Origin: Planctomycetaceae bacterium
GTDB lineage: Bacteria > Planctomycetota > Planctomycetia > Pirellulales > Pirellulaceae
NCBI GenBank assembly: GCA_005798335.1
Contig: SYJV01000203.1
Coordinates: 1 to 36,023, forward strand
Length of the DNA: 36,023 nucleotides
Reading direction: 5' to 3'
The first letter of the stretch is position 1; the number at the start of each line of letters is the position of its first letter. The notes below the pieces were generated by a model, which saw only the letters and a program-made list of their open reading frames with translations, was not told where the DNA came from and did not search any database. Positions 1,635-23,485 of this stretch are shown here, piece after piece. The translations under genes and the position numbers were made by a program.

Positions 1635-1691
1635 GGACCAACGTTTGCATCAATCGAAAAATAACTGCCCATTTGATTTGTAGCCCTGCAC

Positions 1692-1712
1692 TCCGTCGCG
1701 GTGGTCGACGGA
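1692..1712. terminator. Hairpin in the convergent gap after the Trx/PDZ gene
   Basis: A perfect 7-bp inverted repeat, TCCGTCG (1692-1698) and CGACGGA (1706-1712), encloses a 7-nt loop and is followed by AAAAG. It lies between two convergent genes, so it could help end transcription. The tract after it is A-rich on the plus strand and gives no U-run for the upstream gene, so a terminator role is uncertain. The rest of 1635-1928 shows nothing I can name. Confidence 0.3.
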
Positions 1713-1928
1713 AAAAGAGTATTCATCCCGGTGCGATTATTAGCTATTAGCCGGTCGCCGCACTCGGAGCACAACCGGATTATGGTCGGCAACATCGGGT
1801 TATGCTGAAGGAATTGCAGCAGACGATTTGCCGATGGAAGAACGAATGATCAAAGCCTACGTTGGTCCATGAATGAAGCCGCGCAGTTCGATCGCGTTGG
1901 GTGAGATTTGATTGGGGCCGCTGTGAAG

Positions 1929-2957: not shown

Positions 2958-3066
2958 TTGAGCATTCTAGCGAATCTCGGACAAAATACGCAAGTCGTTA
3001 TCACTGCGATACTTGTGCTCACTGACCTGCATGGCGAAAAGGCTGCGGGCCGTAATTCTGAACAAA

Positions 3067-3094
3067 TTTTCCACGGGTATCGGTATGTGGACAA
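3067..3094. promoter_or_regulatory. Two DnaA-box-like 9-mers
   Basis: TGTGGACAA at 3086-3094 is the reverse complement of TTGTCCACA, a recognised DnaA-box variant. TTTTCCACG at 3067-3075 is one or two changes from the same family. They sit between tsaD and the dnaA promoter, a natural place for dnaA autoregulation. Only two sites are visible, and another TTGTCCACA occurs at 28301-28309, so chance cannot be excluded. Confidence 0.4.
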
Positions 3095-3204
3095 GAAGTT
3101 ATCAATTGTTGGCCTCTTTTTACAAAAAAGGCTCACGTCCAAGCCACACCTGGGTTTAGACTAGTCCTTCGCGACGGACGAGGAAGGAATTCGTGGGAAG
3201 TTGT

Positions 3205-3232
3205 TTGACATGCTCGCTAGCAATCCTACAAT
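3205..3232 (+). promoter_or_regulatory. Candidate sigma-70 promoter of dnaA
   Basis: A perfect -35 box TTGACA (3205-3210) is followed after 16 nt by the -10 box TACAAT (3227-3232, 5 of 6 to consensus). Transcription would start near 3239, giving a leader of about 170 nt before the dnaA ATG at 3408. That leader contains the two hairpins at 3320-3342 and 3360-3380. Confidence 0.6.
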
Positions 3233-3319
3233 CGGCCACGCCTTTCACAGGCAGCTCGCGATACTGAACATCGACCGACGGATTTGTGGCCCTCTTCTTG
3301 ACCGTCGAGGTTCGGTAGG

Positions 3320-3342
3320 CGAAATGCAGGGTATGCATTTCG
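3320..3342 (+). promoter_or_regulatory. Perfect 9-bp hairpin in dnaA leader
   Basis: CGAAATGCA (3320-3328) and TGCATTTCG (3334-3342) form a perfect 9-bp stem with a 5-nt loop GGGTA. There is no U-run after it, so it is not a standard terminator. It may be an RNA control element or a protein-binding operator in the leader. Confidence 0.5.
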
Positions 3343-3359
3343 TTCGAAACAGGAACCAA

Positions 3360-3380
3360 GCTGTTAATGATTGTAACAGC
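3360..3380 (+). promoter_or_regulatory. Perfect 7-bp hairpin just upstream of dnaA RBS
   Basis: GCTGTTA (3360-3366) and TAACAGC (3374-3380) form a perfect 7-bp stem with a 7-nt loop. The dnaA ribosome site AGGAG (3391-3395) follows ten bases later. The position would suit an effect on translation initiation, or an operator at DNA level. Confidence 0.45.
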
Positions 3381-3407
3381 ATGAATGGATAGGAGTGCGC
3401 GCCGAGC

Positions 3408-4907
3408 ATGGCACACGATGTGAACCAGAGCGACAAGGACTTCGCGGCTCAGTTGCGATTTTCCCTAGTTGATCGGATCAGCCGGGAGCGCGTTGACTTG
3501 TGGATTCCGCCGGATACTCTTTGGGATTGGGAAGATGGCTGTTTGCGAATCCATTTTTCATCGTTGTTTGCATGCAACTTAGCTAGACGCATGCTTTTTC
3601 GAGATCTTGTAGCGGCTCTGAATGAAGTAGTTGGATCGGATGCTCGATTAATTATGGAACAGAGCAAACTACACAAAGTTGTCTCGGATACTGAATCCAG
3701 ACCGCGATTGCTCGAAAAGAGAGTTATCGCGGGGACAATTCCTATCCCAGGTCGATTACCCAGAAGCGAAAGACTGCCACTGGTGGTCGCATTGGAAAAG
3801 AGAAAAAATTCTCCTCCAGTTATTGCCGCGGACAGACCGCAGCCGGTTCCTGAGCCCACTGCGGCAGCGCGACCTACGTATAGTGTTTGGGAGCAGTTTG
3901 TTTCGGGCACATGCAATGAACTGGCGTGGACGGCCGCAAATATTGCGTTACGCGAGCCTGGCAGCATGACGCCGTTGCTGTTTCATGGCCCAAGCGGCGT
4001 AGGAAAGTCGCACTTGGCGGTTGGGTTAGCCCAACAACTCCGTTCTACTCAGCAACTCAAACGCGTATTGCACTTGTCCAGCGAGCAGTTCACTAATGAC
4101 TTTACGGAAGCGATTTTGGGAAAAGGCTTACCTCTTTTCCGACGCAAGTATCGCGACTTGGAAGCATTGATCATAGACGACATTCAGTTCTTGATAGGCA
4201 AGAAGGCAACCATCGGAGAATTGCACCATACGATCGACAATTTGTTGAAGGCGAATCGCCAAGTCGTATTGCTGGCAGACCGATCACTTCCAGAACTGGA
4301 GGGATTAGGAACCGAGTTGGTCGCTCGCATTCGCGGTGGACTAGTTAGTCCTTTGATGCCGTTGGACGAGGAAACTCGATATCAATTGCTGACCAAAGAC
4401 ATCGCAAGAAATAAGGTATCGATTCCCGACGAATTTCTGCGTCAGATTGCTCAGCGTATCAGCGGAGATGGTCGAGCGATCAAGGGCGTTGTGAAGCGAT
4501 TGGTAGCGATGGAGTCGTTACACGGAAAAAATCTGACCTGGGATCAGTGCTGGAATGCGATTTTTGATTTGGTTCAGGCCACTCAGCCCATCGTCCGTCT
4601 AAAAGACATCGAGCGCGTGGTCTGTGACGTTTTTGGTCTCGAAGCGCAAAGTCTGCAGTCGCATTGCAAAACTCGGACGATTTCCCAACCGCGCATGCTA
4701 GCCATGTTTCTGGCTCGCAAGTATACGCCAGCCGCGTACAAAGAGATTGGAGATTTCTTTGGTCATCGTCGGCATAGCACCGTTATCTCCGCTGAGAAAA
4801 CAGTGGAAGGCTGGTTAAAGGAAAACACGGAATTACAGTTTGCTCGAGGTCCGTTGAGCATTCGCGAAGCGATTCGTCACGTCGAAGCGAACTTACACGT
4901 CGGCTGA
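3408..4907 (+). CDS. dnaA: Replication initiator DnaA (divergent, planctomycete type)
   Basis: DnaA binds origin 9-mers and ATP and opens the origin for replication. The 499-residue protein has an N-terminal domain I (about 10-85), a Pro-rich linker (about 100-155), and an AAA+ domain III with Walker A GPSGVGKS (194-201) and Walker B LIIDDIQ (254-260). The box VII arginine-finger region reads ARIRGG (Arg307) and sensor II is around Arg356. Domain IV (about 395-499) carries the DnaA signature GHRRHSTVISAEK (452-464). The second position of that signature and the arginine-finger context deviate from the enterobacterial form. AGGAG lies 12 nt before the ATG, and an upstream in-frame ATG at 3381 hits a stop at once. 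dnaN is not adjacent; the neighbours are t6A genes. A paralogous DnaA-like protein is possible, but all core motifs are present. Confidence 0.9.
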   Translation: MAHDVNQSDKDFAAQLRFSLVDRISRERVDLWIPPDTLWDWEDGCLRIHFSSLFACNLARRMLFRDLVAALNEVVGSDARLIMEQSKLHKVVSDTESRPRLLEKRVIAGTIPIPGRLPRSERLPLVVALEKRKNSPPVIAADRPQPVPEPTAAARPTYSVWEQFVSGTCNELAWTAANIALREPGSMTPLLFHGPSGVGKSHLAVGLAQQLRSTQQLKRVLHLSSEQFTNDFTEAILGKGLPLFRRKYRDLEALIIDDIQFLIGKKATIGELHHTIDNLLKANRQVVLLADRSLPELEGLGTELVARIRGGLVSPLMPLDEETRYQLLTKDIARNKVSIPDEFLRQIAQRISGDGRAIKGVVKRLVAMESLHGKNLTWDQCWNAIFDLVQATQPIVRLKDIERVVCDVFGLEAQSLQSHCKTRTISQPRMLAMFLARKYTPAAYKEIGDFFGHRRHSTVISAEKTVEGWLKENTELQFARGPLSIREAIRHVEANLHVG

Positions 4908-4978
4908 ATCCACCAGTCCGTTTACCGTCATACATTTACTGTGTGCAATTGATGTGGCATAACGCCAGTCATCGGTAT

Positions 4979-5003
4979 CTTAAGCCGTGGCACGGAGGCT
5001 AAG
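4979..5003. terminator. Bulged hairpin between convergent dnaA and tsaE
   Basis: CTTAAGCC (4979-4986) pairs with GGCTAAG (4997-5003) with one bulged A, and the inner CCG/CGG can extend the stem. It overlaps the tsaE stop codon, at the end of two convergent genes. There is no U-run, so support for termination is weak. Confidence 0.25.
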
Positions 5004-5484
5004 ATTCCCACCGTCGCCCGATTTCCGAAACTGTGGCTGAACCATGGACTCCGAAGCCAGTGAGACAAGCGATTCTGGATCCATCTTCGTTCACGGAAAG
5101 GTCCAAACGCAGATAATTGTCCGGCAGATAATTCTGGAATTTGTCTGCCCATTCGATAATCGTTAAACAGTTGGCTGCAAACATCTCATCGATGCCTAGA
5201 TCCCAAGCTTGGTCTAAACTCTCCAACCGGTAAAGATCGATGTGAAATACGACGATGCGACCTACGTAGCGGTGGACTAACACAAAAGTTGGACTGGTCA
5301 CATCATCACATGGAATTCCTAACGCTTCACAAATGAACTTAGTCAGTTGCGTCTTGCCGCTGCCAAGAGTGCCGGTCAGGCCGATGGCGAGCGGCACGGA
5401 AACGCTAGCGGCCACGCATTGTGCCAGCCGTTTGGAATCGGCCAGAGTTGACATCAATAACAAGTTTGACTTTCGATCGCACAT
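4999..5484 (-). CDS. tsaE: tRNA threonylcarbamoyladenosine biosynthesis ATPase TsaE
   Basis: TsaE (YjeE) is the P-loop ATPase that binds and resets the TsaB-TsaD complex in t6A synthesis. The protein has 161 residues from ATG 5484. It shows Walker A GTLGSGKT near residues 38-45, then SPTFVLVHRY, the HIDLYRL motif and the IIEWADKF motif, all typical of the family. The frame is open to a TTG at 5493 that follows the thiL stop codon with no gap. Neither start has a clear ribosome site, so translation is probably coupled to thiL. A further ATG at 5454 is also possible. Together with tsaD it flanks dnaA. Confidence 0.93.
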   Translation of the reverse strand: MCDRKSNLLLMSTLADSKRLAQCVAASVSVPLAIGLTGTLGSGKTQLTKFICEALGIPCDDVTSPTFVLVHRYVGRIVVFHIDLYRLESLDQAWDLGIDEMFAANCLTIIEWADKFQNYLPDNYLRLDLSVNEDGSRIACLTGFGVHGSATVSEIGRRWES

Positions 5485-5493
5485 GTTCGACAA

Positions 5494-6399
5494 CTACTGA
5501 TGTACGTATCCTGTTGCTGGCAGTTGCCGATACTGGCTCCCGTGTCGCGACCAGAGTCCGGTGCGGCTAATGAACTCACCGACGACATGCACGTTTTGCA
5601 TGCCGATTAGCCCGCGTAATTTGTCAATTTCCTTGGCCGGCACGGCAAGTATCAGTTCGAAATCTTCGCCATCGCCGAGCGCGTGAGCGAGCGCCTGGTC
5701 CGACGCACCGGCAGCCATTTTCCAGGCAGCGGGGGTAATTGGAACTTGAGTCAGATCAAGAACCGCACCGCAGCCCGAGGCATCAGCCATGCGTAGTAAG
5801 TCGATGCTCAAGCCATCGCTGATATCCATTGCGCCATGGATCTCGACTCGTGTTCGTATTTTCTCAACCAAATCGAACCGTGGTACAAAGTCGAGGTGCT
5901 TACCCAGTAAACTGCCTCCAAGCGCCCCTGTCACAATCACTGCGTCGCCAATCTTGGCTCCCGATCGGGTCCAGATTACGTCATCGACGACTTTGCCAAC
6001 TGCGGTGACATGCACGACTAACGGACCATCCCAACAATTCGTATCGCCACCGGCAAGCGCCACTTGAAACTTTTCCGATTGTTCGCAGACTCCTTCATAA
6101 ATCTCGGCAGCAAGAGTTTGCGCGTCGTTCCGAGGAAGACACAGCGACAGAAAGATGGCGAGCGGCTGCGCGCCCATGGCCGCGAGGTCGCTGAGGTTGA
6201 CCGAAACAGCCTTTCGGCCGACACGCCTTGGCCCTGCCTCCTGTAAACGAAAATGGACCCCGTCCATGATGCTGTCGGTCGTTACGACGATGTCGCTGGC
6301 ATTAGTTGCAATGATTGCCGCATCGTCTCCAATTCCGAGTTTGACTTGCGGCAACCGTCTGGCGCGCATCTTCGCCCAGGCGACAAAGGACTGTTCCAT
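5494..6399 (-). CDS. thiL: Thiamine-monophosphate kinase
   Basis: ThiL phosphorylates thiamine monophosphate to thiamine pyrophosphate with ATP and Mg2+, the last step of the pathway. The 301-residue protein has the AIR-synthase-like fold signatures: GIGDDAA (22-28), TDSIMDGVHF (41-50), KAVSVNLSDLAAMGA (63-77), AGGDT (116-120), TGALGGS, AMDISDGLS and GDGEDFEL. The acidic metal ligands in these motifs are intact. The N-terminal segment resembles other ThiL starts, which supports ATG 6399; AGGA lies about 12-15 nt upstream. It sits 51 nt after the giant 2243-residue gene and directly abuts tsaE, so it is probably cotranscribed with tsaE. Confidence 0.94.
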   Translation of the reverse strand: MEQSFVAWAKMRARRLPQVKLGIGDDAAIIATNASDIVVTTDSIMDGVHFRLQEAGPRRVGRKAVSVNLSDLAAMGAQPLAIFLSLCLPRNDAQTLAAEIYEGVCEQSEKFQVALAGGDTNCWDGPLVVHVTAVGKVVDDVIWTRSGAKIGDAVIVTGALGGSLLGKHLDFVPRFDLVEKIRTRVEIHGAMDISDGLSIDLLRMADASGCGAVLDLTQVPITPAAWKMAAGASDQALAHALGDGEDFELILAVPAKEIDKLRGLIGMQNVHVVGEFISRTGLWSRHGSQYRQLPATGYVHQ

Positions 6400-6450
6400 A
6401 ATCGAGAATTCATCCTAAAACAGTTCAGTGCAGATGATTCGCATTAGCAT

Positions 6451-9400
6451 TCAAGGAATGGCCGCTAAATGCCGATTTCGCCAGGGACGCGTGAGCAAAC
6501 GATATCCGAGGGAATACATTGCTAGTCCAGCTATTAAATAGCTTGGCCAGACAATCGGCAACATCGCCCAAGCCAAAAGACTCAGAATAGCGACTAAGAC
6601 CCAAGTTTGGTCTATAGCAAGCCAATTTACGACTGACTCAATTCGCCTGCCAAGCAGTACAACTGAGCCACCCAAAACAATCATCAGCGCTGCTACCAGC
6701 CACATCGCGACCGCGGGTTTCGCGGTACGTTTCTCAGAGATTCGGCAAATGGCGTTGAACGAGTCGACCATTGTTACTTCGAACCAACCGCCACCATTTT
6801 CGCGCACGTTGCCGATAGCAACGGTCGTTAATGTCTGGGGACTCGCTTGAACTGACTGTTCAATACCTAGTTTTGCCAAGTAAGTTCTCCAATACTCGGT
6901 TGGCAAATCGGGTTGTAGGTTTGCTAGGTCGCCGCGCTCAAATTGCTCAGGGGTTGAGTTGGAGTCGATCGTTGTCGCGCTATCGGACTGAGTTGGGACG
7001 CGAACGCTTCGCTTGAGCTGCCAGATCGCAGGCTGCCACATTGCTGACCAGGCAATCAGCGCCGACTTCGAGCGCAACATTGCGCCCGAAAGTGCACCGT
7101 CCAACAGGCCTCGCCACTTGGTTTGCTGAGAATTGCGAACACTGGCAACATTAACTCCGCGCGCCGAGTTCCTTTCAATTGTCGATGCGAGTAGCGCGCT
7201 GCGGTCCAGATGCATGAACATTTGGCAATCCTCGACATTCGCCTCCCATTGCGGCAATACAATGCGGATGACGGGTCCTGTTGATTGCGAAGTCTCGATC
7301 GACGCCCGCCAGCGAACCAATAAGGTCAATCGCGTCGGTAAATGGCTTGGTTGAAGCAAGAATTGCACCTGTCGATCCCGATCCTGTTCCCAATTCGCAA
7401 CGTGTTCACCCATGACCGCACCAACGATTTCTAGGTGTTCGGGCAGCTTGCCCTTGAGAGTTGACTGTCGGCGCGGTTCAATCCAAAGCTCGACAGTGCC
7501 GAGGCATTCGCTGGCGCTGGAATACTGAACGTCGGCTGCGATCAGGTGGATCTTGGCGCGATTGTTGGGCGATTCAATCGTCTGCCAGCTAAGTTGTTGT
7601 TGCGACTCATTGTTTTCATACAGCGTATATCCGTCGGCCGCGAACCATCCGAGAGATTTGGAGTTACTCAGTTTTCTGCCAGTATTGGACCACTGGATTG
7701 GTTGACCGTCGAGAGTGTCGGGTAGCGCAAGCACGGGGCGATTGCGGACACTCCAAAAAACGCGCAAATCGGGAATGCGGATTGACTGCTGCGTAAAAGC
7801 ACTAGGCAGTTTTAGAGTAATACCCAGCCGAGTCTTGCCGTTGACCGAAGGTGGAGGAACAATGCAAAGCGTGATGCGGTTTGACTCAGCCGAAGGCAGA
7901 GTCATCGAAGTAGTTTGGGTCTGGTAACTGTCGCGAAATTCGACGGGCATATCGACAAAATAATAGTCAAGCGGTTCACTTGGCGTTTCCAATTCACATT
8001 CGAACTGGCCAACCCAACCCGACTGTTGATACACCATGCGGAGGGCCGAGCTCCATACGACTTGATTCTTGCGCCGACTGATCTCGACTGTCAGCGGCAG
8101 GTACACGGATTCTCTGAATTTACCTCCAAGTTCGACATCGCCTAGGGATTGCTCCAGATTAGCTAGCAAGTCTTTGACGGGTGAGGAATTCGAAACAAGT
8201 TCTATAGCGTTCGCGGAATCTTGAATGAGCCGACACACTAGTTCTGCGCCTTGGGTCAACCGCAGATAGCTAGACGATATTACAGAGTCCATGAGAATTG
8301 GACGGGACAAACGCGTTGCTGAATTCAATCGATTCGGCAGAGCTAACTCCAAATCGAGCGACTGTACGCCGCCTCGAGCGATATCGTGTAGGAGTGCCAA
8401 GTGTGCAAAGTCATCCATGGGTGTGACATTAAAGCTGGCTGGTAACTGGTTGATATGGGCTGCGATGACCCGAGCATCCCTAGGGATCTGTAGTGACAGT
8501 GACGATTGCGATTCGAGCGGCAATTTCCAGCGTGCAGAGTATCGAATCACAGTTTCCGGTTGACGTATATGGATCTCGGTTGTCTCATCGACCTGGGCGG
8601 GCGTGGAAATCGGTTGCTTTATTAGAGTCGCTGCAACATTGCCAAGCGGAACTCGCAAAGTGACAGGTTGTTCAGCCAGTTTCGCATCGCCCCATACGGA
8701 CATTGGTTGAGCAAAATTGTGCCATGATTCAGTCCCTTCCAGTTTCCATCCTGGAAAACCGGGAACCGAAACAGCCAGCGTACGCATGAGAGGCTGGCTT
8801 TCCTGAAGCGACAAGAACGGAATTGGCAAAGAGGAACTCGTCTCTGGATCGCGGGGCAGCAACAGAACTCGCACGGTAGCATTATCGCTGCCCAGTCGGC
8901 TACGACGAACTGCGTACAGCGTTCGCGATTGTCCAACCGACGTCTCCGCCGGAATCATGACAGCATCCAACCATTGATTTCCCACAGGATACCACTGTGA
9001 ATCTATTGCGACCACTAAATTTTCTGGCAGAGCTGTAGCGCCGGTAATGTTCAATTGAGCATACGCAACAACCTGAGTGTGCCGAATGCGCACCCAAGTA
9101 TGTGCGAATACTTGTGGGACGACGTCCGGAGTGGTGCGGAGTTGCCAGCTAATGTCGAGTTGCGAAACCGGGCCGAGATCCGCGACCAGGGAGTCTCTTT
9201 CATCTCGATGCACTTCACCCACGCTGGACACTTCAATTTCTTGAGTCGATTCCGAGCGAATTTCCAGCCGCGCAGTCGCAATCGGCGGAATACGAAAAGC
9301 CAAGCGCCCGCGGCCATCGAGTTCCTGTAAGGGTCCGCGCGGGACCAGAATCAATTGCACGTTGTATTGCTTAGCCGACGGTGCGCTCCAAACGATGTGA

Positions 9401-12400
9401 TCAGACTCTTGGCGAAAAGCGCTGCCAAATACTTCGATTCCATCGACAAAGAACCTTGCAAGCTGCACTTCGGCCGAATACACCGGAAATCGCAATAGTG
9501 GTTTGTCGGAAGTCAGCGTGACGTTTAGGTCGACCGTTACTTCAGCGATCGATGCCCGCTGAGACATCGTCGATTGAACATGCGCGCGGTAACTCACGCT
9601 GTGGATACGCGTGCTAAAATCACTCCATGCACCTTGCTGAGGATTCTCCAGCAAGTCGATTAACTGGCGTGGAGCATATACGAGATTCCCGGCAGGTGTC
9701 TGCTGTTGATCGGTCGGAACCAAAATGCCGTAGATCTTTCTAGCAGAATATTTGCCGGGTTCATGCAGTTCCCGATTCGCTTGGCCAATCAACTGTCGAC
9801 TATCTTGAGCCACACCGCAACTGCAGGTGGATTGCCCGAACACAATCATTGCAATGCCAAGCACTGAATGCTTGGCAACTGTAGAACCTCGTCGCAACGA
9901 AGGTCGCTGGACACCATGGAGACGGGCGAGTTTGGCTGTAATACGTACGGTTAGAGCAATGGCGAAAGCCAAGCAAATGCCCTGAACCATACCGACCAGC
10001 CATACTGGCACGCTAAGGCAGGCCGCGGACAATAGCGCAGCCAGCGACAACCAACGCCACGCATAAACAGCACAAATATGAAAGATGAAAATCGACAACA
10101 GACAGAGCGATGCGGTCACAATTGCGCTGATGGCCGCTTTGTCAACGATCCACCACCGGGCATGCGAGAAAGCGATCGAAAGATCTTTGACCGCCGGTGC
10201 TGCGGTCGGCGGTCGTATCAACTCCCAATCTTCACCAAGTCCGGCGGGACGTTTAAAGTACTCGCCTCCCGAGTGTGAAGCGTTTAAGTCGACACGAACA
10301 CGATCAGTAAGTGCATTTGTGGACGCAGCCGGCGAGTCTTCATGATGCGTTCGACCGTCAGGACGCAGTAAATCCCACCATTGCTTCGGATTCAATCGAT
10401 CTAGCAATTTGACTTGATCAAATACTAGCAACTTTTCGACCGACATCTTTCCTGGAGCGATCCAGTATCGACAATCGTGGTGCAATGTTTGCACAGAGCA
10501 GTTTACAGCCACGGGCTCCAATCGAGTCAACCAAGAATCATCAGTGCTCGGGCCCTTGCAGATGAGTGTCACGGGCACTCGCGCTCCCGGCGGTAGCGAA
10601 ATACTAAGCGACTGATTCGACTCGATCGGTAACGGACGACGATTCACTCCGTTGACCATCAGTATCGTTGGCGTCCATTGCGCTGGAACTGTAACTCGTA
10701 CAATCGAGTCCTTCGGGGACATGAAATTCCACCGTACCTCATGCCAGGTTGCCTCGCCAAAAGACTGCCAATTGTCAATTGTTTGGTCCCAAGCCCAAAT
10801 CCTCGCCGATTGAGATAATTCTGTGAAATCGATTTTTGTTAGGCTGTTTGGGTCGTAACGACATTGTACAACGGGTTGGACAGGCTGATGTATAGATGAT
10901 GCTCCCTCGCTGCCGAATGAGTCGGTACCCGGCGGAAGTAATTCGAGAGGCATGGAACTGACGGATTGCCACAACTCGTGCGGCAGCGAAATCTGACCCT
11001 CTTGACTGGCCGCCTCTGGAGCGCTGGGAAGTGAAACAGAGTAGGAGCCATCGGTCGCTCTTAATAGAGTTTTGGCAGATAATTCGAAAAGCTGCGTTAG
11101 CGGCCTGGAAAAAGTGAGTTCAAGAACCGTTTCGGTCGGCGACGAGCTTATCGTATTGGTCGTCACCATCGTGGATTCGGCAGGCTGGTTACCGAGAGAG
11201 ACCATGGCCCAGGCGCTTGCAGTTACACTTGGGGCCGCCGGAATCACGACTTGTAGTTTGGAAATGCCGCCAGATACGGGTAAGCACGCGAGTCGATATT
11301 CTACGTGCAACTCATCGGCTTGTTTGGTAAGAAATGTTCTGCATGTTGTGGTAAATGCGCCTCGAATTCGTCGCATCGTCAGCGGAGGTAAATTGCCACG
11401 AACACCACGGAAAATCCACGTTTCCGACAACCGCGGCAGCATGGCCTTTTGCCAGCCCAAAAGATCGACCTCGGTCAACCGCAATTGCAATAGCTCCGTA
11501 TCGACCTGCAATTGATATTGTCCGGTTGTTTCCACGACGTATGCATCTTGCTGGTCCGCGCTAGCGAGAGAAATCAGCCCACTTTGCGGTAATCGCAGCA
11601 GTTCGACGTTGGTAGTACGTGGGACGTGAGCAGACAATACTAAATCAAGTTCTACGTTGCTGCGAACCTCGTCCCAATGGACGACCAGCTTGCTGCGACC
11701 TCCACCTAGTTGTTGCAGGTCGGTACTCACGCTCGATCCCTCGAGCGTACAGGACGTGTCGTCCACGAACCAACCGCGACCAACTTCCAGCTCCAATCGA
11801 TTCGACCGCAAATCCCGACCAGTCAAATGCAACCGCGATGTGGCGTCAAACCACGCTGGATGAACCGAGAATTTGGTTAACGACCTGACTTGCCAAGGAG
11901 GAGACGGATCGGCGATGCGAATCTCGACTGCGTCCATTGCGCCTTGCCAGTCCCATCGCCACTCAGGCAGCTCGCGAGTTTGTCCGGTCGCTGTGGGTGC
12001 CAGCGACATGGCGGCTCGAAAACCTGCTGGTTTAAGCTCCTCGACCAACAAAGACTCGCTGCTTATCAGGTTGCTTCGACCGTCGACTACAAAGCCTCGC
12101 TCGATATTAATTGTCGGCAACACACCGCTGAAGGGTATTTGCAAGGGCATGAATGCTTCAACTTGAATCTGGTGCATGCCGTTGTTCTGGCTCGGCAATT
12201 CGATTGAAACTGTATTCCTAGAATCGCGTGCAGGCTCCCGCCGCCACGCTACTTCTTCTTTGTCGACTCGAATGGCTCGTAAACGCAATCGTGTGTCAAC
12301 GGCGAACCTCACTTGCGACACGCCCTGCCAGGGCACGATACACTCCGTTCGCAGGCGCATTTCGCTTGCCCGGATGACGTATTCGGCTTTAAAAGTTCGC

Positions 12401-13182
12401 ACGTTCAGGTCCCACTGAGGGCCGCTGTTTTTCTCGCGTGGCGATAATTTCAAGTCGAACCGCCGGCACCCTGACACGTGCATTACGTACCATGACACCA
12501 GTGGCGATTGATTCACCTTGAGTTCGTCTGGCCAGTCCGCTGGCAATTCCGCGTTGGGTTGTTCAATCTCGGAAATTGCAACCGTTGACGACCAAAGCTT
12601 CAAATGGATAGGGACAGAAACGATCAACTTGCCAAACACTGCCCCTGGCAACTCAACTTGGTAGGTTCCTCCCTGCGGGTCTGCCGTGGTTGGTCTTGCT
12701 ACAAAACCAAACCACGCCTGAGAAATTGTTCGGTCGACTGCAACCCAACCTCGACCATCAGCCTGATAGTGGAGAAAATTAGTCAATGAATTTCGCGAGG
12801 CATCCCCAGGGTGTAATGCAACGTTGGGAGTGCCGATATCTACAGGCTGTCGCGCATCGGAATCGCGAAATTTCCAACGAGAGTATTTTGAAACTAGTGC
12901 TTTTTCGGAGATTTCGGCCAGGTAGATCGCCTCTTCGATTCCTGCTACTGAGTGCTCGGGGGCTTGGCGCCGCGCGGTTTCTGCGCGCAGCAATTCACCA
13001 AGATCCTCGACTGCAATAAGTTGGTATTTGTCGGAATCGGCCAGCAAGTCGATCTGGTCGTCCGGCACGTTGATACGCATTGCTTCCCATTGCCCTTGCA
13101 GTTGGCAATCGCCAACCTCAACCATGCAAATCGCCATCGTGATGGCCATCGCGTTCCTCAAGAACATGCGTAGCCAGCACAT
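6451..13182 (-). CDS. Giant two-unit membrane-anchored beta-rich protein
   Basis: I recognise no named family. From ATG 13182 it has 2243 residues; the frame stays open to 13329, but GGAGG eight bases before 13182 and the signal peptide that follows decide the start. The upstream gene stops one base before this ATG. Residues 1-25 are a signal peptide. Unit 1 (about 30-1100) is beta-rich and ends in transmembrane helices at about 1014-1080. A further hydrophobic, signal-like segment at 1106-1126 opens unit 2 (about 1130-2150), which ends in helices at about 2159-2177, 2194-2212 and 2215-2230. By eye each unit resembles the whole upstream 1128-residue protein: a VP-[D/T]-D start, a strand-rich body, a conserved module before the helices, and a [V/I]WP or VPVW motif within the helices. 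Likely exported and membrane-anchored; function unknown. Confidence 0.82.
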   Translation of the reverse strand: MCWLRMFLRNAMAITMAICMVEVGDCQLQGQWEAMRINVPDDQIDLLADSDKYQLIAVEDLGELLRAETARRQAPEHSVAGIEEAIYLAEISEKALVSKYSRWKFRDSDARQPVDIGTPNVALHPGDASRNSLTNFLHYQADGRGWVAVDRTISQAWFGFVARPTTADPQGGTYQVELPGAVFGKLIVSVPIHLKLWSSTVAISEIEQPNAELPADWPDELKVNQSPLVSWYVMHVSGCRRFDLKLSPREKNSGPQWDLNVRTFKAEYVIRASEMRLRTECIVPWQGVSQVRFAVDTRLRLRAIRVDKEEVAWRREPARDSRNTVSIELPSQNNGMHQIQVEAFMPLQIPFSGVLPTINIERGFVVDGRSNLISSESLLVEELKPAGFRAAMSLAPTATGQTRELPEWRWDWQGAMDAVEIRIADPSPPWQVRSLTKFSVHPAWFDATSRLHLTGRDLRSNRLELEVGRGWFVDDTSCTLEGSSVSTDLQQLGGGRSKLVVHWDEVRSNVELDLVLSAHVPRTTNVELLRLPQSGLISLASADQQDAYVVETTGQYQLQVDTELLQLRLTEVDLLGWQKAMLPRLSETWIFRGVRGNLPPLTMRRIRGAFTTTCRTFLTKQADELHVEYRLACLPVSGGISKLQVVIPAAPSVTASAWAMVSLGNQPAESTMVTTNTISSSPTETVLELTFSRPLTQLFELSAKTLLRATDGSYSVSLPSAPEAASQEGQISLPHELWQSVSSMPLELLPPGTDSFGSEGASSIHQPVQPVVQCRYDPNSLTKIDFTELSQSARIWAWDQTIDNWQSFGEATWHEVRWNFMSPKDSIVRVTVPAQWTPTILMVNGVNRRPLPIESNQSLSISLPPGARVPVTLICKGPSTDDSWLTRLEPVAVNCSVQTLHHDCRYWIAPGKMSVEKLLVFDQVKLLDRLNPKQWWDLLRPDGRTHHEDSPAASTNALTDRVRVDLNASHSGGEYFKRPAGLGEDWELIRPPTAAPAVKDLSIAFSHARWWIVDKAAISAIVTASLCLLSIFIFHICAVYAWRWLSLAALLSAACLSVPVWLVGMVQGICLAFAIALTVRITAKLARLHGVQRPSLRRGSTVAKHSVLGIAMIVFGQSTCSCGVAQDSRQLIGQANRELHEPGKYSARKIYGILVPTDQQQTPAGNLVYAPRQLIDLLENPQQGAWSDFSTRIHSVSYRAHVQSTMSQRASIAEVTVDLNVTLTSDKPLLRFPVYSAEVQLARFFVDGIEVFGSAFRQESDHIVWSAPSAKQYNVQLILVPRGPLQELDGRGRLAFRIPPIATARLEIRSESTQEIEVSSVGEVHRDERDSLVADLGPVSQLDISWQLRTTPDVVPQVFAHTWVRIRHTQVVAYAQLNITGATALPENLVVAIDSQWYPVGNQWLDAVMIPAETSVGQSRTLYAVRRSRLGSDNATVRVLLLPRDPETSSSLPIPFLSLQESQPLMRTLAVSVPGFPGWKLEGTESWHNFAQPMSVWGDAKLAEQPVTLRVPLGNVAATLIKQPISTPAQVDETTEIHIRQPETVIRYSARWKLPLESQSSLSLQIPRDARVIAAHINQLPASFNVTPMDDFAHLALLHDIARGGVQSLDLELALPNRLNSATRLSRPILMDSVISSSYLRLTQGAELVCRLIQDSANAIELVSNSSPVKDLLANLEQSLGDVELGGKFRESVYLPLTVEISRRKNQVVWSSALRMVYQQSGWVGQFECELETPSEPLDYYFVDMPVEFRDSYQTQTTSMTLPSAESNRITLCIVPPPSVNGKTRLGITLKLPSAFTQQSIRIPDLRVFWSVRNRPVLALPDTLDGQPIQWSNTGRKLSNSKSLGWFAADGYTLYENNESQQQLSWQTIESPNNRAKIHLIAADVQYSSASECLGTVELWIEPRRQSTLKGKLPEHLEIVGAVMGEHVANWEQDRDRQVQFLLQPSHLPTRLTLLVRWRASIETSQSTGPVIRIVLPQWEANVEDCQMFMHLDRSALLASTIERNSARGVNVASVRNSQQTKWRGLLDGALSGAMLRSKSALIAWSAMWQPAIWQLKRSVRVPTQSDSATTIDSNSTPEQFERGDLANLQPDLPTEYWRTYLAKLGIEQSVQASPQTLTTVAIGNVRENGGGWFEVTMVDSFNAICRISEKRTAKPAVAMWLVAALMIVLGGSVVLLGRRIESVVNWLAIDQTWVLVAILSLLAWAMLPIVWPSYLIAGLAMYSLGYRLLTRPWRNRHLAAIP
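9855..9877 (-). other. Perfect 9-bp hairpin at the internal unit junction
   Basis: TGCCAAGCA (9855-9863) and TGCTTGGCA (9869-9877) form a perfect 9-bp inverted repeat with a 5-nt loop inside the coding sequence. It lies at the boundary between unit 1 and unit 2 of the giant protein, immediately before an in-frame ATG at 9849 and over an in-frame GTG. It could be a relic of a former intergenic region or an internal control element; chance is also possible. Confidence 0.45.
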
Positions 13183-13183
13183 G

Positions 13184-16100
13184 CTAGGGCCCTCCGTCAA
13201 CGGGCACCGGAGATCGAGCCTGAGTGGTGGATGGATTCTGACTTTGTGGCCGCGAACCAGGTTGGCGCTCGCTGCCACGATCAGACGCAGAAGTTGGACG
13301 GCTGGTAAATACGCTGCGACGTCGTACACGCGTGTCTACTGCCGCGCGAGTGATTAACACCAACGCGACCAATCCGATTGAAACTATCAACGTTTGACCA
13401 ACTAGAATCGCCAGGTCCGGCCATACCATCGCTAGCCCACCAAACAGCGCAACCCAAGTGACCAAGACGAGCGGACTGCGTAGAAAGCGAATTGACATTG
13501 TAAGGACGGTCAGAAGAATTGAGATTAACCCCACTGGAAACCAGAGTACCAATCGCGACACCGTCCAGCACTGAAAACTCTTGGCAGATCCAAAGCTGCT
13601 CAGCAGGTAACGATTGTTGGTCGCAGCAATTTCGGGCTGGTTCGCAACGCCAACCCATTTCTCAAGTTCTGGCTGGCCAAGCTTACTTTCTCGCGACCAC
13701 CAAAAACCGTTCCACGCCCAATGCCATTCGGGCATGAATCCATTTGGGACAATTGCCAGGTGACTGATATAAGGCGTAATCAATTGCCAGTAGAAGCGGT
13801 TGATACCATCGGTGCCGTCTATTTTTGGAATATCGATATTGTGCGGCGCGATCCATGAAATGGAACCCACTGGCCAAGTCCAGATATCCAATAGATAAAC
13901 ATCGCCGCCTTCCTTCACTGGCAGATCGAACTGGTACTTGTCCACTGCAATAGGAAATGGAGAGACGGGTTTACCGTCGACAAATATTTGCGGATTGGCT
14001 CCAGGAATGTTAACCGTCAGTTTGGTCTGATCGGTGCGAATGCTAGCGCAAAATCGATCGCGACGATCCGCGCCGCTGATCGCGGTCTGTAACCACGCTC
14101 GTTCGACCTGGACCGGCAAGTAGGTCACTCGTTTAAGTCGCCGGACCGAGATTGGTAATCGCGTTTTCGAAAGACTAAACTCTAAAGGGAACCTGAGTTC
14201 GCGATCGAATTGCTCTGTTGAAACAAAATCATTCGCGCTACTGTCATGAGAAATTTCTAGGTCGCGACTGCTCGAAATGGACACCTCGCCTGACAAGTTC
14301 CGACTGATATTGGGCAATTTTAACAATGGGATTGGCACGGTGATCGTAGTTATCGCGCCAAAATCCGGCTGTTTGGCTAAGTTGTAACGGCCTGTAATCA
14401 AGACTGATGTTTTCCCGATCAGATCGGGCACTCCCAACAGTTGAAAATCATAGGATGGTGCGGGTGGCACGACTGCGGGCACCGATCGAATGCTATATTC
14501 TTGTCCGTTGATAAACACCCGCAAATCTTGCAAAGATCTACTAGCGGAAAATTCCAAGTTGCTGAGCGGAAGGTGGTCGATCTGCAAGGACATTTCCTGC
14601 TTGAGTGCGACATGCTCCAACTCAACTTGGCAATTTAGGCGTTGCTCAATCGCGACTTGTTGAGGCAGTATTTCGGCTTGCCCTTGCCACTTTGGAGTCG
14701 TTTCGCCGCCGGCCTGAAAGCGATAAACTGCCGAACGACTGGCCAGTTCGCCACCGATCAATTCGATCTGCGACGGAGAAAGCGAATCGCTCAAAAGACC
14801 CTGACTATTCTCTTCGTCCCAGTGCAGCATCACATTGCTTGCGGCCGCAACCATTATTGCACCCGTACCGTGATCAACGTCAGGCTTCCCTCCGTCACTG
14901 CGATAGCGAACAATGCGAGGAACAGCAAATTGGACAATTGTGTTGCCGGTAGACTTCATCGGCAAATAGGCCGTTAGCCGCCACAACTGCTGTATGCGCT
15001 TGTTGGCGGTGCCAATTTCAGAGTTGTCGAAACTGCTCAATTGAATTGAGCCATCTGGTTGCACAGCATGCCCCAGCGTCTCGAATGAGCCGACAGGACT
15101 GGACCCTGACACGATTTCGGCCGTCGCCAGCGACCAATCGCCTAGGTGCAAACCAAGTTCTAATGCTTGCGAAGGTTCGAAAGCACAATTGAGCCAAGCT
15201 GTCAATTTCAGTTTGCTTTGGTCGACGATGACTAAGTAAGTCGGCCGCACGCTGGCGAGAGCAGTTTCCCGGCCAACTTTTGCATTCAGGCTGAACGGTT
15301 GGCGACTAAATCGGAATGCATACAATGTCCGATCCAAACCAATTTCATTGCGTTTATTCTCGAGCTCCGTTCCCTCGCCAATCCGCTGATCGTCCAGCGA
15401 GTAAAAGCTCGGCATGGAAATCTCAACGCGACCATCGTGGAGGTCGGCCTCAGGCAGCATAATTCCTGGTATCGAAATCGGCGATTGTAGAGGTGATCCT
15501 GGTGGAGGACGCCATTCCCATTGAATGGACAATCGATATTGGTCTGCGGGACTCCAAAATCGTACAAGCAATTCGACTGGTTCTGCTGCTGCGCTTGGTT
15601 TTTCGTGGGAAGTTTCGTTGATGGAGAATGCGTTTTGGAACTGAGGCGAGGGCAAATATCGTGAACCCGGTGGCAAACGAATTATCATCGGAGCATTTTG
15701 GTCATGATGATATCTATGAATCTCAAAGTTGGAGGACACCACCCACGCCGATTGTGGATTGTCAAATTCAAAACGCGTAAAACTGTGCGCTTCAACTGGG
15801 GAAATGCGATTTAACGCCGTGCCTCGGCGCCATGAAATGGCCACGTCTCCGTTGCTGCGGATAATCGCTTTCTTTTTCGATTCTTGCTGCTCGATATCGA
15901 TCAAACCGCTGCCTTGCTGGCCCAGTCGCAAATCCTTGACATCGTTGGGTATTTCGAACTCGATCAGGCACGGGCTGGCGGGCAGTGCCAAAGTAAGTTG
16001 CTGGCGATCTTGTTCGTCGACCAAGACTGTTCGTGCGACCAAACGCAATGAATATTGCTCGGCTTGCTTGGTCCGCAGATGCCAAATATAGCCGCGGTCA

Positions 16101-16570
16101 GTAGGCGAAATCTCCAGCGTCTGTTTGCCGCCCCCTTCGAATTGAACCTTCTCGACTAACTGACAATTTTCCAATCGCAAAGGAATTTCAAGCAGTTGTT
16201 CGTTGGTGGAATCATGAATCTTGACGTTGTATTGTGCCACCAATTCGGCAAAGTGCTCGTGAATTGTTGCGCGGACGGTAACTTGTTCAAAACTATATCG
16301 CGGGAATTTTCCATTGACGATTTCCAGAAAGTCGCCCACCGAGAAACCTGGCACCAACTTGGGATTGGACTTGTCGTCTGGCAGCCACAGCCTAGCGTCT
16401 AAAGCAAGTGTGCCATCTTTGGATAACGGCGGTGGTTCCCTTGAGACCGCAGGCTTATCAACTTGGTCACTGGATTGCGACCAACAGTTAACTTCGCTCG
16501 CACACAAAAAAAGTATTGCGAGCGTTAGCGACAAACTCTTCGCGATAAGTAAAAGAAGTTTCCCAACCAT
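13184..16570 (-). CDS. Large membrane-anchored beta-rich protein (single unit)
   Basis: I recognise no named family. From ATG 16570 the protein has 1128 residues; a GTG at 16633 would add 21 residues ahead of the signal peptide, which makes the ATG more likely. A signal peptide spans about 1-30. The body is strand-rich, with a WLPDD motif early on. A module at about 849-960 (IPGANPQIFVDG, RFYWQLITP) has visible counterparts in both units of the downstream 2243-residue protein. Transmembrane helices occupy about 1007-1077, including MVWPDLAILVG, followed by a basic, Ser/Pro-rich cytoplasmic tail of about 50 residues. It ends one base before the next gene's start, so the two are almost certainly cotranscribed and made in linked amounts. 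Confidence 0.82.
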   Translation of the reverse strand: MVGKLLLLIAKSLSLTLAILFLCASEVNCWSQSSDQVDKPAVSREPPPLSKDGTLALDARLWLPDDKSNPKLVPGFSVGDFLEIVNGKFPRYSFEQVTVRATIHEHFAELVAQYNVKIHDSTNEQLLEIPLRLENCQLVEKVQFEGGGKQTLEISPTDRGYIWHLRTKQAEQYSLRLVARTVLVDEQDRQQLTLALPASPCLIEFEIPNDVKDLRLGQQGSGLIDIEQQESKKKAIIRSNGDVAISWRRGTALNRISPVEAHSFTRFEFDNPQSAWVVSSNFEIHRYHHDQNAPMIIRLPPGSRYLPSPQFQNAFSINETSHEKPSAAAEPVELLVRFWSPADQYRLSIQWEWRPPPGSPLQSPISIPGIMLPEADLHDGRVEISMPSFYSLDDQRIGEGTELENKRNEIGLDRTLYAFRFSRQPFSLNAKVGRETALASVRPTYLVIVDQSKLKLTAWLNCAFEPSQALELGLHLGDWSLATAEIVSGSSPVGSFETLGHAVQPDGSIQLSSFDNSEIGTANKRIQQLWRLTAYLPMKSTGNTIVQFAVPRIVRYRSDGGKPDVDHGTGAIMVAAASNVMLHWDEENSQGLLSDSLSPSQIELIGGELASRSAVYRFQAGGETTPKWQGQAEILPQQVAIEQRLNCQVELEHVALKQEMSLQIDHLPLSNLEFSASRSLQDLRVFINGQEYSIRSVPAVVPPAPSYDFQLLGVPDLIGKTSVLITGRYNLAKQPDFGAITTITVPIPLLKLPNISRNLSGEVSISSSRDLEISHDSSANDFVSTEQFDRELRFPLEFSLSKTRLPISVRRLKRVTYLPVQVERAWLQTAISGADRRDRFCASIRTDQTKLTVNIPGANPQIFVDGKPVSPFPIAVDKYQFDLPVKEGGDVYLLDIWTWPVGSISWIAPHNIDIPKIDGTDGINRFYWQLITPYISHLAIVPNGFMPEWHWAWNGFWWSRESKLGQPELEKWVGVANQPEIAATNNRYLLSSFGSAKSFQCWTVSRLVLWFPVGLISILLTVLTMSIRFLRSPLVLVTWVALFGGLAMVWPDLAILVGQTLIVSIGLVALVLITRAAVDTRVRRRSVFTSRPTSASDRGSERQPGSRPQSQNPSTTQARSPVPVDGGP

Positions 16571-16828: not shown

Positions 16829-18268
16829 CTATTGCCCGCTATCTACTAGTTTATCTGGCGTACCTGGAATCAGTTCAATTGGCGCATCGTCGAGTGGTTT
16901 GACATGGCACAACAGAGCAAACAAATCCGCTAACTCCGCAAACGTAAGTTGTTGCTCAAGCCCCTCCGGCATCAACGAATTGCTGCTCGTCTTCATCTGC
17001 TCGATATCAGAATCTCTATTTAACTCAATCGTCTTGCCTCCTTGCACCTTCAGAGTCACGCGCCGCTCATCTGCTGCGACCAGCAATCCGGAAATCACTT
17101 GTCCGTCAGTTGTCAGCACAGTTCTAGCTTGAAATGCCGCACCTATCACCAAGCTTGGGTCGAGTACATTCGAGACTAACTGTTCAAAGTTTCCGCGACC
17201 ATTGCTGGTAATGTTCGGGCCAACTTCGAATCCTTGTCCGTGTAGGACGTGGCATTGCGAACAGACACGTTGAAACACCGCTAATCCGCGATGCGGATCG
17301 CCCGGTTTAGGTGCAGCGCGCAGTTGAGCGATCGTGCGACTGACCAACTCCTGACGTTGGGCGTTATCGGAAGCCCGAATCTGTCCCCAAGTCTCTTCAA
17401 TTTGCTTAGCTAACGCCTGCTGGTCCGTCGCCAACCATTTTCTGAGCTGATTTGTGTTTACTAAGTCTTTTGCGATCCTGCCATCGCGAATCTCATGGAT
17501 CAGTAGCATCATCGTATCAGCTTGATGAGTCAGCGGTTCGATACAAGAAACACGGACCTCGCGCGGCAATCGATTCCACTCCGCCAGCACCAAGCGGCTG
17601 GCACGCGTGCGATCAGCATCGAAAGCTTGTGTGATTGCCACTTGTAGCCAATCAACTTCTACGGAATCTTTAGAAAGCACCTGCTGGAAATGCTGAAACG
17701 CCGATTCACGATCAGCGTGGAACCAAACGCGCATCAGCAAGCCGCGAGTATCATTGTTGCCTCGCAGTTCTACCATCGATTTCAGAGCTGTCAGGTGAAC
17801 CGATTTCGCTTCGGTATTTTGCGAATTAACAATCACGAGCGCCGCGACCGCGACCGGGCGCCTAGGATCGTCGTCCTTGTTGGCTGCAGCTTCGAAGATC
17901 GAACTCATTTGGGCGAGCTGGCCGGCTAGTGTTTCGACCTGACCACGCGCAAGAGCCAGTTCCAACGTGCGCTGCAACGATCGAGCGGCGGACTCGGGGT
18001 TTCCATTCCACAGCAACTTGAGAATCCTCAGCGATCCACCCAGTCCGGCAGACGTACCACTCGCTGGCGTTTGCTCCGTGGCTTGGACCGGAGTTCCAAC
18101 TAGCGTCGGTCGGCTGTTTTTCGGTGTTTCTTGCGAATGAGCGCAGCAAGTAGGAATCACCAAGCTGGCCAGTACGACTCCGAGCACCAACGATTGGTCC
18201 CGCCAGAAAAATCCGCATCCAAATCTGCCGACGAGTGGTTGGCGTGTCTGAAGTTCATTGGCATTCAT
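16829..18268 (-). CDS. PVC-type c-cytochrome (haem-binding) protein
   Basis: The protein has 479 residues from ATG 18268. A TTG 33 nt upstream would overlap the previous gene and lengthen the n-region, so ATG is preferred. A signal peptide with hydrophobic core lies at about 25-42. The middle is helical and HEAT-like. The C-terminal domain has a CSQCH haem motif (336-340), GPNIT, a TDGQVISG strand pair and SLMPEGL, whose Met433 is the likely sixth haem ligand. This matches the planctomycete/verrucomicrobial haem-binding domain (TIGR02603 type). It follows the propeller protein by 7 nt. In most relatives both parts are one protein of about 1000-1100 residues, so this looks like the C-terminal half with its own export signal. 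It probably accepts electrons from its upstream partner in the periplasm. Confidence 0.85.
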   Translation of the reverse strand: MNANELQTRQPLVGRFGCGFFWRDQSLVLGVVLASLVIPTCCAHSQETPKNSRPTLVGTPVQATEQTPASGTSAGLGGSLRILKLLWNGNPESAARSLQRTLELALARGQVETLAGQLAQMSSIFEAAANKDDDPRRPVAVAALVIVNSQNTEAKSVHLTALKSMVELRGNNDTRGLLMRVWFHADRESAFQHFQQVLSKDSVEVDWLQVAITQAFDADRTRASRLVLAEWNRLPREVRVSCIEPLTHQADTMMLLIHEIRDGRIAKDLVNTNQLRKWLATDQQALAKQIEETWGQIRASDNAQRQELVSRTIAQLRAAPKPGDPHRGLAVFQRVCSQCHVLHGQGFEVGPNITSNGRGNFEQLVSNVLDPSLVIGAAFQARTVLTTDGQVISGLLVAADERRVTLKVQGGKTIELNRDSDIEQMKTSSNSLMPEGLEQQLTFAELADLFALLCHVKPLDDAPIELIPGTPDKLVDSGQ

Positions 18269-18275
18269 TATGCGA

Positions 18276-20108
18276 TTATTGATCCTGCAGCTTCTCAGCA
18301 ACTCGCGGCAAGATGGCTACCACGGCGGGTGCTTCGGCGGCTTTCGACTGTTCGATCAATTGTAAAAACTGCTCTGATTTTTTGGGCAACAAGGGATGCA
18401 AGTTCTGCCACACGATATGCGGAATCAACGCGTCGTTACCACAACTCGCCAGCACATCGATCCAAACTGGAATGGGATCGACTCCCTTGAGCTTCTTAGC
18501 CGCGACAGCAACTTGCAGTAACACATCGGGATGTGCATCGTGCGCCATTTCAATAATCTTTTTGGATAATTCTGCTTGGTCAGCGAGCAAGTTGCCCACG
18601 CCGCGCACTCCCCAAGCTCGCACACTAGGGTTCGCGTGATTTAACAAAGCCTTTGCAAACTTGGGACTTAATTCGCTGCCAGAAATCAATGCCCACAGCG
18701 CATGCAAGCGGTGCTTTTCAGGAGTCGAGTTGTCGACGACCAGTTTTTCGAGTTCCGTTAACACTCCTTTGCAATGGCGCTCACTTAGTAGCCGCTGTGC
18801 AATTTCGCGCAAACATACATTGCCGTGACCCAACATCGCAACCAATTCCTGGTTCGACTTTGCTGAGAGATCTCCCGATGGCACTGGAGCGATCTTGTCA
18901 TAAACGACGCGATAGAGCCGACCATGCCCGCGATCGATTCCCTCGGGATCTGCTTTGGCATCTTGGTAGCAGTGATATCGGTCATACCAATCCAGAACAT
19001 ACAAACAGCCATCCGGCCCTACTTTTTGTACCACGGGCATGAACCAGACATCGTTGCCCGTGAGAAAATCGTTTTCGCCGGTCGCACGGTAAGTCGATCC
19101 ATTTCGATGCAGCCGATCAACATTCAAGCAGTTGCCGTGGATGTTTCCCATCACCAATAAATCCCGCATGGATTCGGGATATGCGGGAGTATCTAGATAG
19201 GTGATGCCACAATACGCGGCCATTTGATGCTGATGCTTGACGATCGATTCGATCTTCCAAGTGTGCGGCGGGTAGGGGCCGCCTTGCCGATGGTAGTAAC
19301 CGCTTTCGCTCAGATGCCACAAGTGATCAATTACGCAAGCGCTGACGAAAGCTTGGCCTAACGGGTCAAATGCGATACCCCATGGATTGCTCGTGCCCTC
19401 GCTGAAGAGTTCAATCTTTCGCGAACGAGGGTGAATGCGAAACATTGCGCAGGTGAATTTATAAGTCTGGCCATCTTTTACGACGGTGGACGGATTAAAA
19501 ACTCCGTTCAAGCCATACAGCCATCCGTCTGGACCCCATGTCAGACTGTTGGGTAACTCGTGCGTGTCATCCCGGCCAAAACCGGTTACAACAACGGTTT
19601 GCTTGTCTGCACGATCATCCTGATCAGTATCCTCGAGAAAGAGGATATCTGGGCTGTTCGCGACCCAGACTCCACCATAACCGACCGCTATTCCTGAGGG
19701 GATGTTGAGACCCTCGGCAAAGATCTTTACAGAATCGACTTTTCCATCCCGATCGATGTCTTCAAGAATCTTGATGCGATCTCGACCAGGCCCAGGCGCA
19801 TGCCGTGGATATTCAAAACTCTCTGTCACCCAAATGCGCCCACGTTCATCGAAAGTCATGGCGACGGGGTTTACCAGATCCGGTTCCGCCGCAACTATTT
19901 CGACATGAAAGCCGTCTGGAACCGTAATTTTCCGTAAGGCCTCTTCGGGCGCTAGTGGCGGACCAGGCATTTTCGTTTGTTTGCGTGGAATAAAAGGTTG
20001 CTTGGGGTTCTGGCCTTCGTTCTTTTTGTCTTGAGCCATTACGGGCCATGGGGCGAACAGCCAACACAGCACAAGCATGCGGCTGATAACTTGGATGCTC
20101 ATTTTCAT
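18276..20108 (-). CDS. PVC-type membrane-bound dehydrogenase, beta-propeller with HEAT repeats
   Basis: The protein has 610 residues from ATG 20108, with GGGAG eight bases upstream. Residues 1-25 are a signal peptide. Residues about 60-410 form a sorbosone-dehydrogenase-like beta-propeller (VPDGFHVE, DERGRIWVTES, IKILEDIDRDGKVD, PNSLTWGPDGWLYG, KVGPDGCLYVLDWYD), typical of the planctomycete putative membrane-bound dehydrogenase domain (TIGR02604). Residues about 425-600 are HEAT-like helical repeats. No CxxCH haem motif is present; it is supplied by the next gene, which begins 7 nt later. The substrate is unknown; sugars or polyols are a family-level guess. It diverges from the lipoprotein gene at 20289. 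Confidence 0.88.
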   Translation of the reverse strand: MKMSIQVISRMLVLCWLFAPWPVMAQDKKNEGQNPKQPFIPRKQTKMPGPPLAPEEALRKITVPDGFHVEIVAAEPDLVNPVAMTFDERGRIWVTESFEYPRHAPGPGRDRIKILEDIDRDGKVDSVKIFAEGLNIPSGIAVGYGGVWVANSPDILFLEDTDQDDRADKQTVVVTGFGRDDTHELPNSLTWGPDGWLYGLNGVFNPSTVVKDGQTYKFTCAMFRIHPRSRKIELFSEGTSNPWGIAFDPLGQAFVSACVIDHLWHLSESGYYHRQGGPYPPHTWKIESIVKHQHQMAAYCGITYLDTPAYPESMRDLLVMGNIHGNCLNVDRLHRNGSTYRATGENDFLTGNDVWFMPVVQKVGPDGCLYVLDWYDRYHCYQDAKADPEGIDRGHGRLYRVVYDKIAPVPSGDLSAKSNQELVAMLGHGNVCLREIAQRLLSERHCKGVLTELEKLVVDNSTPEKHRLHALWALISGSELSPKFAKALLNHANPSVRAWGVRGVGNLLADQAELSKKIIEMAHDAHPDVLLQVAVAAKKLKGVDPIPVWIDVLASCGNDALIPHIVWQNLHPLLPKKSEQFLQLIEQSKAAEAPAVVAILPRVAEKLQDQ

Positions 20109-23393: not shown

Positions 23394-23485
23394 TGTTCGA
23401 GGCGCGGGATGCTCACTGCGGTGATGAATCACCATCGAGCAGATTAGCGATCGCTGCAAAATGCAAAAACTCGAGGACGCGAGTA

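Follow-up and report, generated by a model that had tools for sequence, protein, structure and literature searches.

What kind of proteins two adjacent giant genes of a Planctomycetaceae bacterium encode, and how one of them came to hold two similar units in a single chain, is the question raised by this locus. In the window, i.e., the whole stretch of 36,023 nucleotides that was analyzed, a sequence-only reading had placed the two genes within 6451-16570, one base apart, and this was confirmed, A being at 13184-16570, B at 6451-13182 and the gap between them the single base 13183. For the analysis, B was cut at residue 1096 into B1 and B2. The features of the region are the following:

13184..16570, minus strand: gene A (unit A, 1128 aa), from profile matches to B1 and B2
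6451..13182, minus strand: gene B (fused B1 and B2, 2243 aa), from profile comparison
16481..16570, minus strand: signal-peptide region at the A N-terminus (approximate), from model helix 2-27 and a hydrophobic segment
13832..16204, minus strand: tandem array of β modules of ~170 aa, A residues about 123-913, from hhalign self-comparison and model strands
13316..13555, minus strand: C-terminal membrane-helix anchor of A, residues about 1006-1085, from hydropathy, the model and a net positive tail
9895..13182, minus strand: unit B1, from a profile match
9925..10122, minus strand: membrane-helix cluster closing B1, B residues about 1021-1086, from hydropathy
9808..9891, minus strand: internal signal-peptide-like segment with a predicted site between G-V-A and Q, B residues 1125/1126 (score 7.4)
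6454..9894, minus strand: unit B2, from a profile match and the model
6460..6714, minus strand: C-terminal membrane-helix anchor of B2, B2 residues about 1061-1145, from the model
5494..6399, minus strand: thiL-like gene (AIRS domains), downstream neighbor, from Pfam
4999..5493, minus strand: tsaE, downstream neighbor, from Pfam

The reading had assigned one common order of features to A and both halves of B, and this order (a signal-like start, a strand-rich body and a C-terminal helix cluster) was recovered in the three units by hydropathy and by the models of A and B2. AlphaFold models of A (57-sequence alignment; mean pLDDT 80.5, pTM 0.44) and B2 (54-sequence alignment; mean pLDDT 78.5, pTM 0.45) display strands through the body and C-terminal helices, the same β body being followed by helices in both. 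Across loci of the order (Pirellulales in all counts below), hydropathy detected mostly one starting hydrophobic segment and a C-terminal helix cluster per unit, a pattern found twice in B, along with scattered single hydrophobic segments within some bodies.

Sequence profiles were built from 57 A, 54 B1 and 54 B2 sequences, excluding L106 and L107, two loci with a split B, and for the B profiles also L071, in which B has 1942 residues; the B1 alignment (A3) holds 48 of the 54 sequences, with six over-long ones omitted. Their comparison by hhalign revealed collinear, significant similarity over most of the length and along the main diagonal in every pairing: A versus B1 reached E 2.8e-44 over 964 columns, A versus B2 E 1.9e-37 over 795 columns, and B1 versus B2 E 1.1e-38 over 827 columns, with a between-unit identity of only about 8-12%. 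Among five pairings with reversed columns, the lowest E-value was 1.3e-3 for local alignment and 4.6e-6 for global alignment, where about 140 columns of the helix-rich end were aligned. The module strands singled out by the sequence-only reading, IPGANPQIFVDG and VPAQWTPTILMVNG, occupy the same aligned columns as a B2 counterpart, LPEHLEIVGAVMG. Its two short motifs stand in register or close to it: at the start, VPDD of B1 aligns with VPTD of B2, and LPDD of A is offset by one column from VPTD and by some twelve from VPDD; at the transmembrane cluster, VWP of A and VPVW of B1 have their proline in the same column, and WP of B2 is shifted. Trp accounts for the fully invariant columns, together with the initiator Met in B1. 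All three units are homologous, each consisting of a signal-like start, repeated β modules and a C-terminal helix cluster. Self-comparison by hhalign produced repeat offsets of about 170 and 340 columns in A (best E 1.3e-17), B1 (9.6e-10) and B2 (3.3e-15), which indicates that each unit is an array of about four to five modules. This repeat array within the units and the internal signal-like start of B2, discussed below, were absent from the earlier reading, the latter being new here.

Used as a single query, A matched 194 of the 246 sampled genomes of the order and B matched 17 of the 246, presumably owing to a faster divergence of B; the identity of A to the window protein within the order is 17-30%. 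A4, a profile built from the C-terminal portion of A, matched 171 of 196 sampled order genomes, and 141 of 159 among the more complete, clean ones. In a phylum sample, 67 of 392 genomes matched A4, which divide by a hand count into 12/12 for the order, 26/28 for the rest of the class and 29/352 for others, several of the last matches being short or weak and maybe due to chance. A contig search with the A of a relative found one locus, in Blastopirellula marina DSM 3645, the strain in which L098 (genus g2) has an 88%-identical counterpart; with P0002, one of the two proteins of the pair, the contig search found no relative. Of the 25 genomes that A4 did not match, 16 were assessed for joint absence; 20 of the 25 are listed by name, and among these G037, G060, G065 and G085 were omitted, of which G060 and G065 had matched A, and G085 had matched B, in single-query searches. 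Fourteen of the 16 were also without a B2 profile match, and the remaining two, G134 and G155, matched the B2 profile despite having no A4 match, G134 having matched A as a single query. A and B are largely co-inherited. Some single-contig genomes of the order (G024, G081, G086 and G166) are without the pair, so A and B are not universally required. Given its prevalence in the A4 survey and the lack of a library family name, the pair is a candidate part of the unusual planctomycete envelope.

Sixty loci of the order were fetched, with ORF lengths counted from the first start codon and some therefore over-long. An A ORF of more than 900 residues was recovered in 58 of them and an adjoining long ORF on the same strand in 56, of which 53 have a second ORF of at least 2100 residues, the others being L071 and the split B of L106 and L107. 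Two further loci carry a fused B (2236 residues in L057 and 2558 in L081) without a recovered A, which a contig end cuts in the former and an overlap filter dropped in the latter, where A had matched as a single query; a fused B is thereby present in 55 of the 60 loci, 53 of them with a recovered A. The contig ends inside the second gene in L070 and L079. Among gene-number versions of the locus, the two-gene fused form is the usual one, and a three-gene form occurs in L106 and L107 (two genomes of genus g87), where three separate genes match A, B1 and B2 one to one. The units of these two loci are larger, at 1506-1682 aa.

Twenty further regions were taken from the phylum sample and the window's own genome, and 13 of them contain an A-like ORF followed by a B-like ORF of more than 2100 residues; L150, L152 and L162 are cut by contig ends, and L160, L165, L166 and L167 deviate. 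In five of the further regions, a second locus type was found, with a B near 2700 residues. The window's own genome has such a second locus, for which contig C9 carries, at its end, A' and the first part of B' (L150, G000:C9:1-14000; ORFs at 2-3403 and 3285-6812), and a B2-like ORF of 1558 on contig C181 (L175, G000:C181:1715-2479) may be the remainder of B', this second copy of the pair apparently being broken over two contigs. L164 has an extra unit after B. Extra single B1-like units at 1597-5457 of L164 and 9993-13802 of L165 belong to one genome and have short branches to its B1, which suggests recent copying. L160 holds, at 3989-15055, an ORF of 3688 aa with two recognizable units after about 1200 residues without a listed match.

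The history of the units was examined in a quick tree of 118 units, from 21 sets of the order and other loci, of which only the broad pattern is to be trusted given long branches and uneven composition. In this tree, one starred group unites 25 of the 37 B1 units, a second, with lower support (87), gathers 26 of the 37 B2 units, and a third (100) comprises 26 of the 39 A units and one stray B1. The order's units largely follow these three groups, a few long-branch strays excepted. The type labels require 13 changes on the tree versus a mean of 58.4 when shuffled. Units from second loci and from other classes stand apart from the three groups, again mostly sorted by type. Tandem duplication followed by fusion, the simplest history envisaged by the sequence-only reading, is supported by the profile comparison together with the three type groups, and the duplication is old, as these groups also take in the A, B1 and B2 units found at the first locus in another family of the class. 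The three-gene version was considered as the unfused ancestor and rejected, since L106 and L107 are nested among fused relatives in the quick tree (to be trusted moderately), and this form reads better as a later fission. As reconstructed from the sequences, the history is a nested one, running from module repeats through unit triplication and fusion to fission in one genus.

The genomic neighborhood was surveyed for a function-telling conserved neighbor, and none was found. The thiL-tsaE pair that the sequence-only reading had placed next to the family does abut it according to Pfam, but the adjacency is not conserved: at E 1e-3, BLAST matched neither gene to any ORF in 80 other loci, each spanning 20 kb at most. 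We rejected a functional link to these two genes, this neighborhood being local to the window's genome among the loci examined. Upstream of A, 26 of the 60 order loci and L161 carry a gene of the inositol-monophosphatase family (assigned by PF00459 on one representative), which is the commonest neighbor; less common are genes for GNAT (14 loci), acyltransferase (11) and ATP-grasp (10) proteins. Further out, a family of 254 aa without a Pfam match is present in 19 loci. Elsewhere in the window, the minus strand carries tsaD (1929-2957) as well as tsaE, and dnaA lies between them on the plus strand (3408-4907); upstream of A, 16829-20108 encodes a DUF7133/HEAT protein and then a cytochrome-c-like protein, and at 22278-28093 a Trypsin-PDZ protease gene adjoins the gene for a PQQ/TPR protein of 1566 aa, one base being common to both.

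The junction between B1 and B2 bears most directly on the fate of the fused protein. After the B1 helices, a linker with a median of 33.5 residues precedes a short hydrophobic segment, which 4 of 54 B2 starts lack by the threshold used. A small-x-small-Q motif was found at 24 of 50 B2 starts versus 14 of 406 C-terminal helices, and at the N-termini of 32 of 56 A and 21 of 50 B1 units; strict AxA was found at 20 of 50 B2 starts versus 69 of 406 C-terminal helices. The motif follows the segment at a median distance of 6 at B2 versus 5 at N-termini, and in 40 of 50 the charge is more positive before the internal segment than after it. A matrix for the cleavage site, trained on the A and B1 N-termini and tested on B2, with 371 helices as controls, reached an AUC of 0.92; 26 of 50 B2 starts lie above the control 95th percentile (6.0), including that of the window (7.4), and 24 lie below it, compared with passes for 82 of 106 training starts and 117 of 1000 same-composition shuffles. 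A second matrix, trained on 65 other secreted-looking ORFs, was noisier (12/50 for B2, AUC 0.75; 1/11 for others). Outside the order, 2 of 11 internal segments pass (14 units looked at). The separate B2 genes of L106 and L107 have hydrophobic, signal-like starts that score 2.0 and 4.9, below 6.0. An internal signal peptide with a cleavage site is a statistical feature of the order's B proteins and not of every member. We read the junction as a kept signal peptide, its cleavage being likely in the order and conjectural elsewhere; with a signal-peptidase-type site there, B may be a polyprotein from which two anchored stalks are cut.

The charge following the last helix is net positive in 51 of 57 A and 50 of 54 B2 units, but in only 26 of 54 B1 units. 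The bodies would be extracytoplasmic and the ends of the units would be on the cytoplasmic side of the membrane, an arrangement in which B1-B2 can be a single chain with no topology conflict. In 37 of 57 gene pairs, the A stop and an in-frame B start share a 4-nt overlap, a figure without a chance control, and this overlap together with the co-absence is compatible with a joint product. We tentatively favor, as close to an even chance, an old three-paralogue family of planctomycete envelope proteins whose cleaved stalks form one complex. Signal peptidase I would usually cut B at the internal signal, so that A, B1 and B2 would be present as three individually anchored stalks of roughly equal abundance; these would associate into one stalk-like periplasmic complex, the role of which would be structural, e.g., spacing or tethering envelope layers.

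The main alternative holds that B stays uncut, the internal segment being an uncleaved signal anchor and the fusion fixing two extracytoplasmic stalks side by side. Conservation of the fusion in 55 of the 60 order loci and elsewhere in the phylum speaks for it, as do the 24 of 50 internal segments under the control 95th percentile and the mere 2 of 11 passing outside the order. It accounts less readily for a motif enriched far above shuffles and control helices at an N-terminal-like distance, and for the separate-gene version in L106 and L107, a natural control for the polyprotein reading. We consider an uncut B a serious possibility, though with a chance somewhat short of even.

Comparison of the models with known structures bears on what the predicted stalks might do. 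In Foldseek searches against the PDB, integrin alpha chains ranked first for both models (E 1.2e-8 for A and 2.0e-11 for B2), and the best matches were multi-domain β-sandwich ectodomains, i.e., integrin alpha chains and ribophorin I/Ost1, with inter-alpha-inhibitor heavy chain and M1 peptidases also matched. TM-scores to the matches were 0.35 or less, so the folds are only broadly alike, and the matches support a predicted multi-domain β stalk rather than membership in any of these families. The units could also be surface adhesins or receptors resembling integrin legs, in keeping with the rank of integrin alpha and with the fast divergence of A within the order; we regard this as unlikely, as the units end in a C-terminal helix cluster with no sign of surface export, Pfam recognizes no ligand-binding domain in them, and the TM-scores to integrin alpha are about 0.1. 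More doubtful still is a role in envelope biogenesis as enzymes or chaperones, to which the ribophorin I, inter-alpha-inhibitor heavy chain and M1 peptidase matches and a very weak B1 profile match to the N-terminal part of leukotriene A4 hydrolase (E 0.7) could point, but no catalytic family is consistently matched in 39 units and the invariant columns are Trp, besides the B1 start Met. That the units resemble each other by chance or generic β-sandwich likeness, as their low identity might suggest, was rejected as next to impossible by hhalign, with collinear local E-values of 1.9e-37 or better versus 1.3e-3 or worse for reversed profiles.

The sequence-only reading had named no described family with this design, and no convincing relative was found in Pfam, NCBIfam or PDB sequences. 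Neither P0001 nor P0002, the two proteins of the pair, has a Pfam or NCBIfam match below E 0.05. When 39 units of 13 genomes were scanned, five Pfam families and five from NCBIfam were matched, each by one unit only, the best being Trypan_PARP (Pfam, E 0.0011) and TonB (NCBIfam, E 1.3e-4); sequence profile searches of the PDB reached at best E 1.4 for A, 0.13 for B2 and 0.012 for B1 (helix region). In the accessible portions of the literature searched, mostly outside subscription journals and including PMC10632474, PMC5177795, PMC8567305 and PMC3422733, the family is not described, and the search returned no experimental datum on any member. As far as the portions available show, 108 essential phylum-specific proteins of unknown function are reported in planctomycetes (PMC10632474), and planctomycete giant genes are a class defined by size with a 5-kb threshold, which B exceeds, with no family of this design among them (PMC5177795). 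The internal signal peptide points to something rarely claimed for bacteria, a cellular polyprotein. With some reserve, and at rather less than an even chance, we propose that B is such a polyprotein, each stalk having its own signal and anchor, and that splitting by signal peptidase would give a 1:1:1 complex characteristic of planctomycetes and unlike any described.

Three known systems offer partial parallels. Integrin alpha chains consist of a β-domain chain outside the membrane with a C-terminal anchor; they (PDB 3fcs, 9e8a and others) are the best Foldseek matches of both models, yet do not share the same overall fold, the TM-scores being about 0.1, and have no sequence match, and the family units differ in being bacterial and in having several anchor helices each. 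Ribophorin I/Ost1 likewise has a β-sandwich ectodomain and a C-terminal membrane anchor. The oligosaccharyltransferase subunit (6c26, 6ezn, 6s7o) reaches a TMt of up to 0.35 for A, but spans 432-580 residues versus the long array of the family units, in 39 of which no match to the ribophorin I sequence family was found against Pfam. FbcH, the cytochrome b-c1 precursor of Bradyrhizobium, has an internal signal peptide after its membrane helices and is cut into two proteins; its parts are unrelated proteins, whereas B comprises two paralogous giant units.
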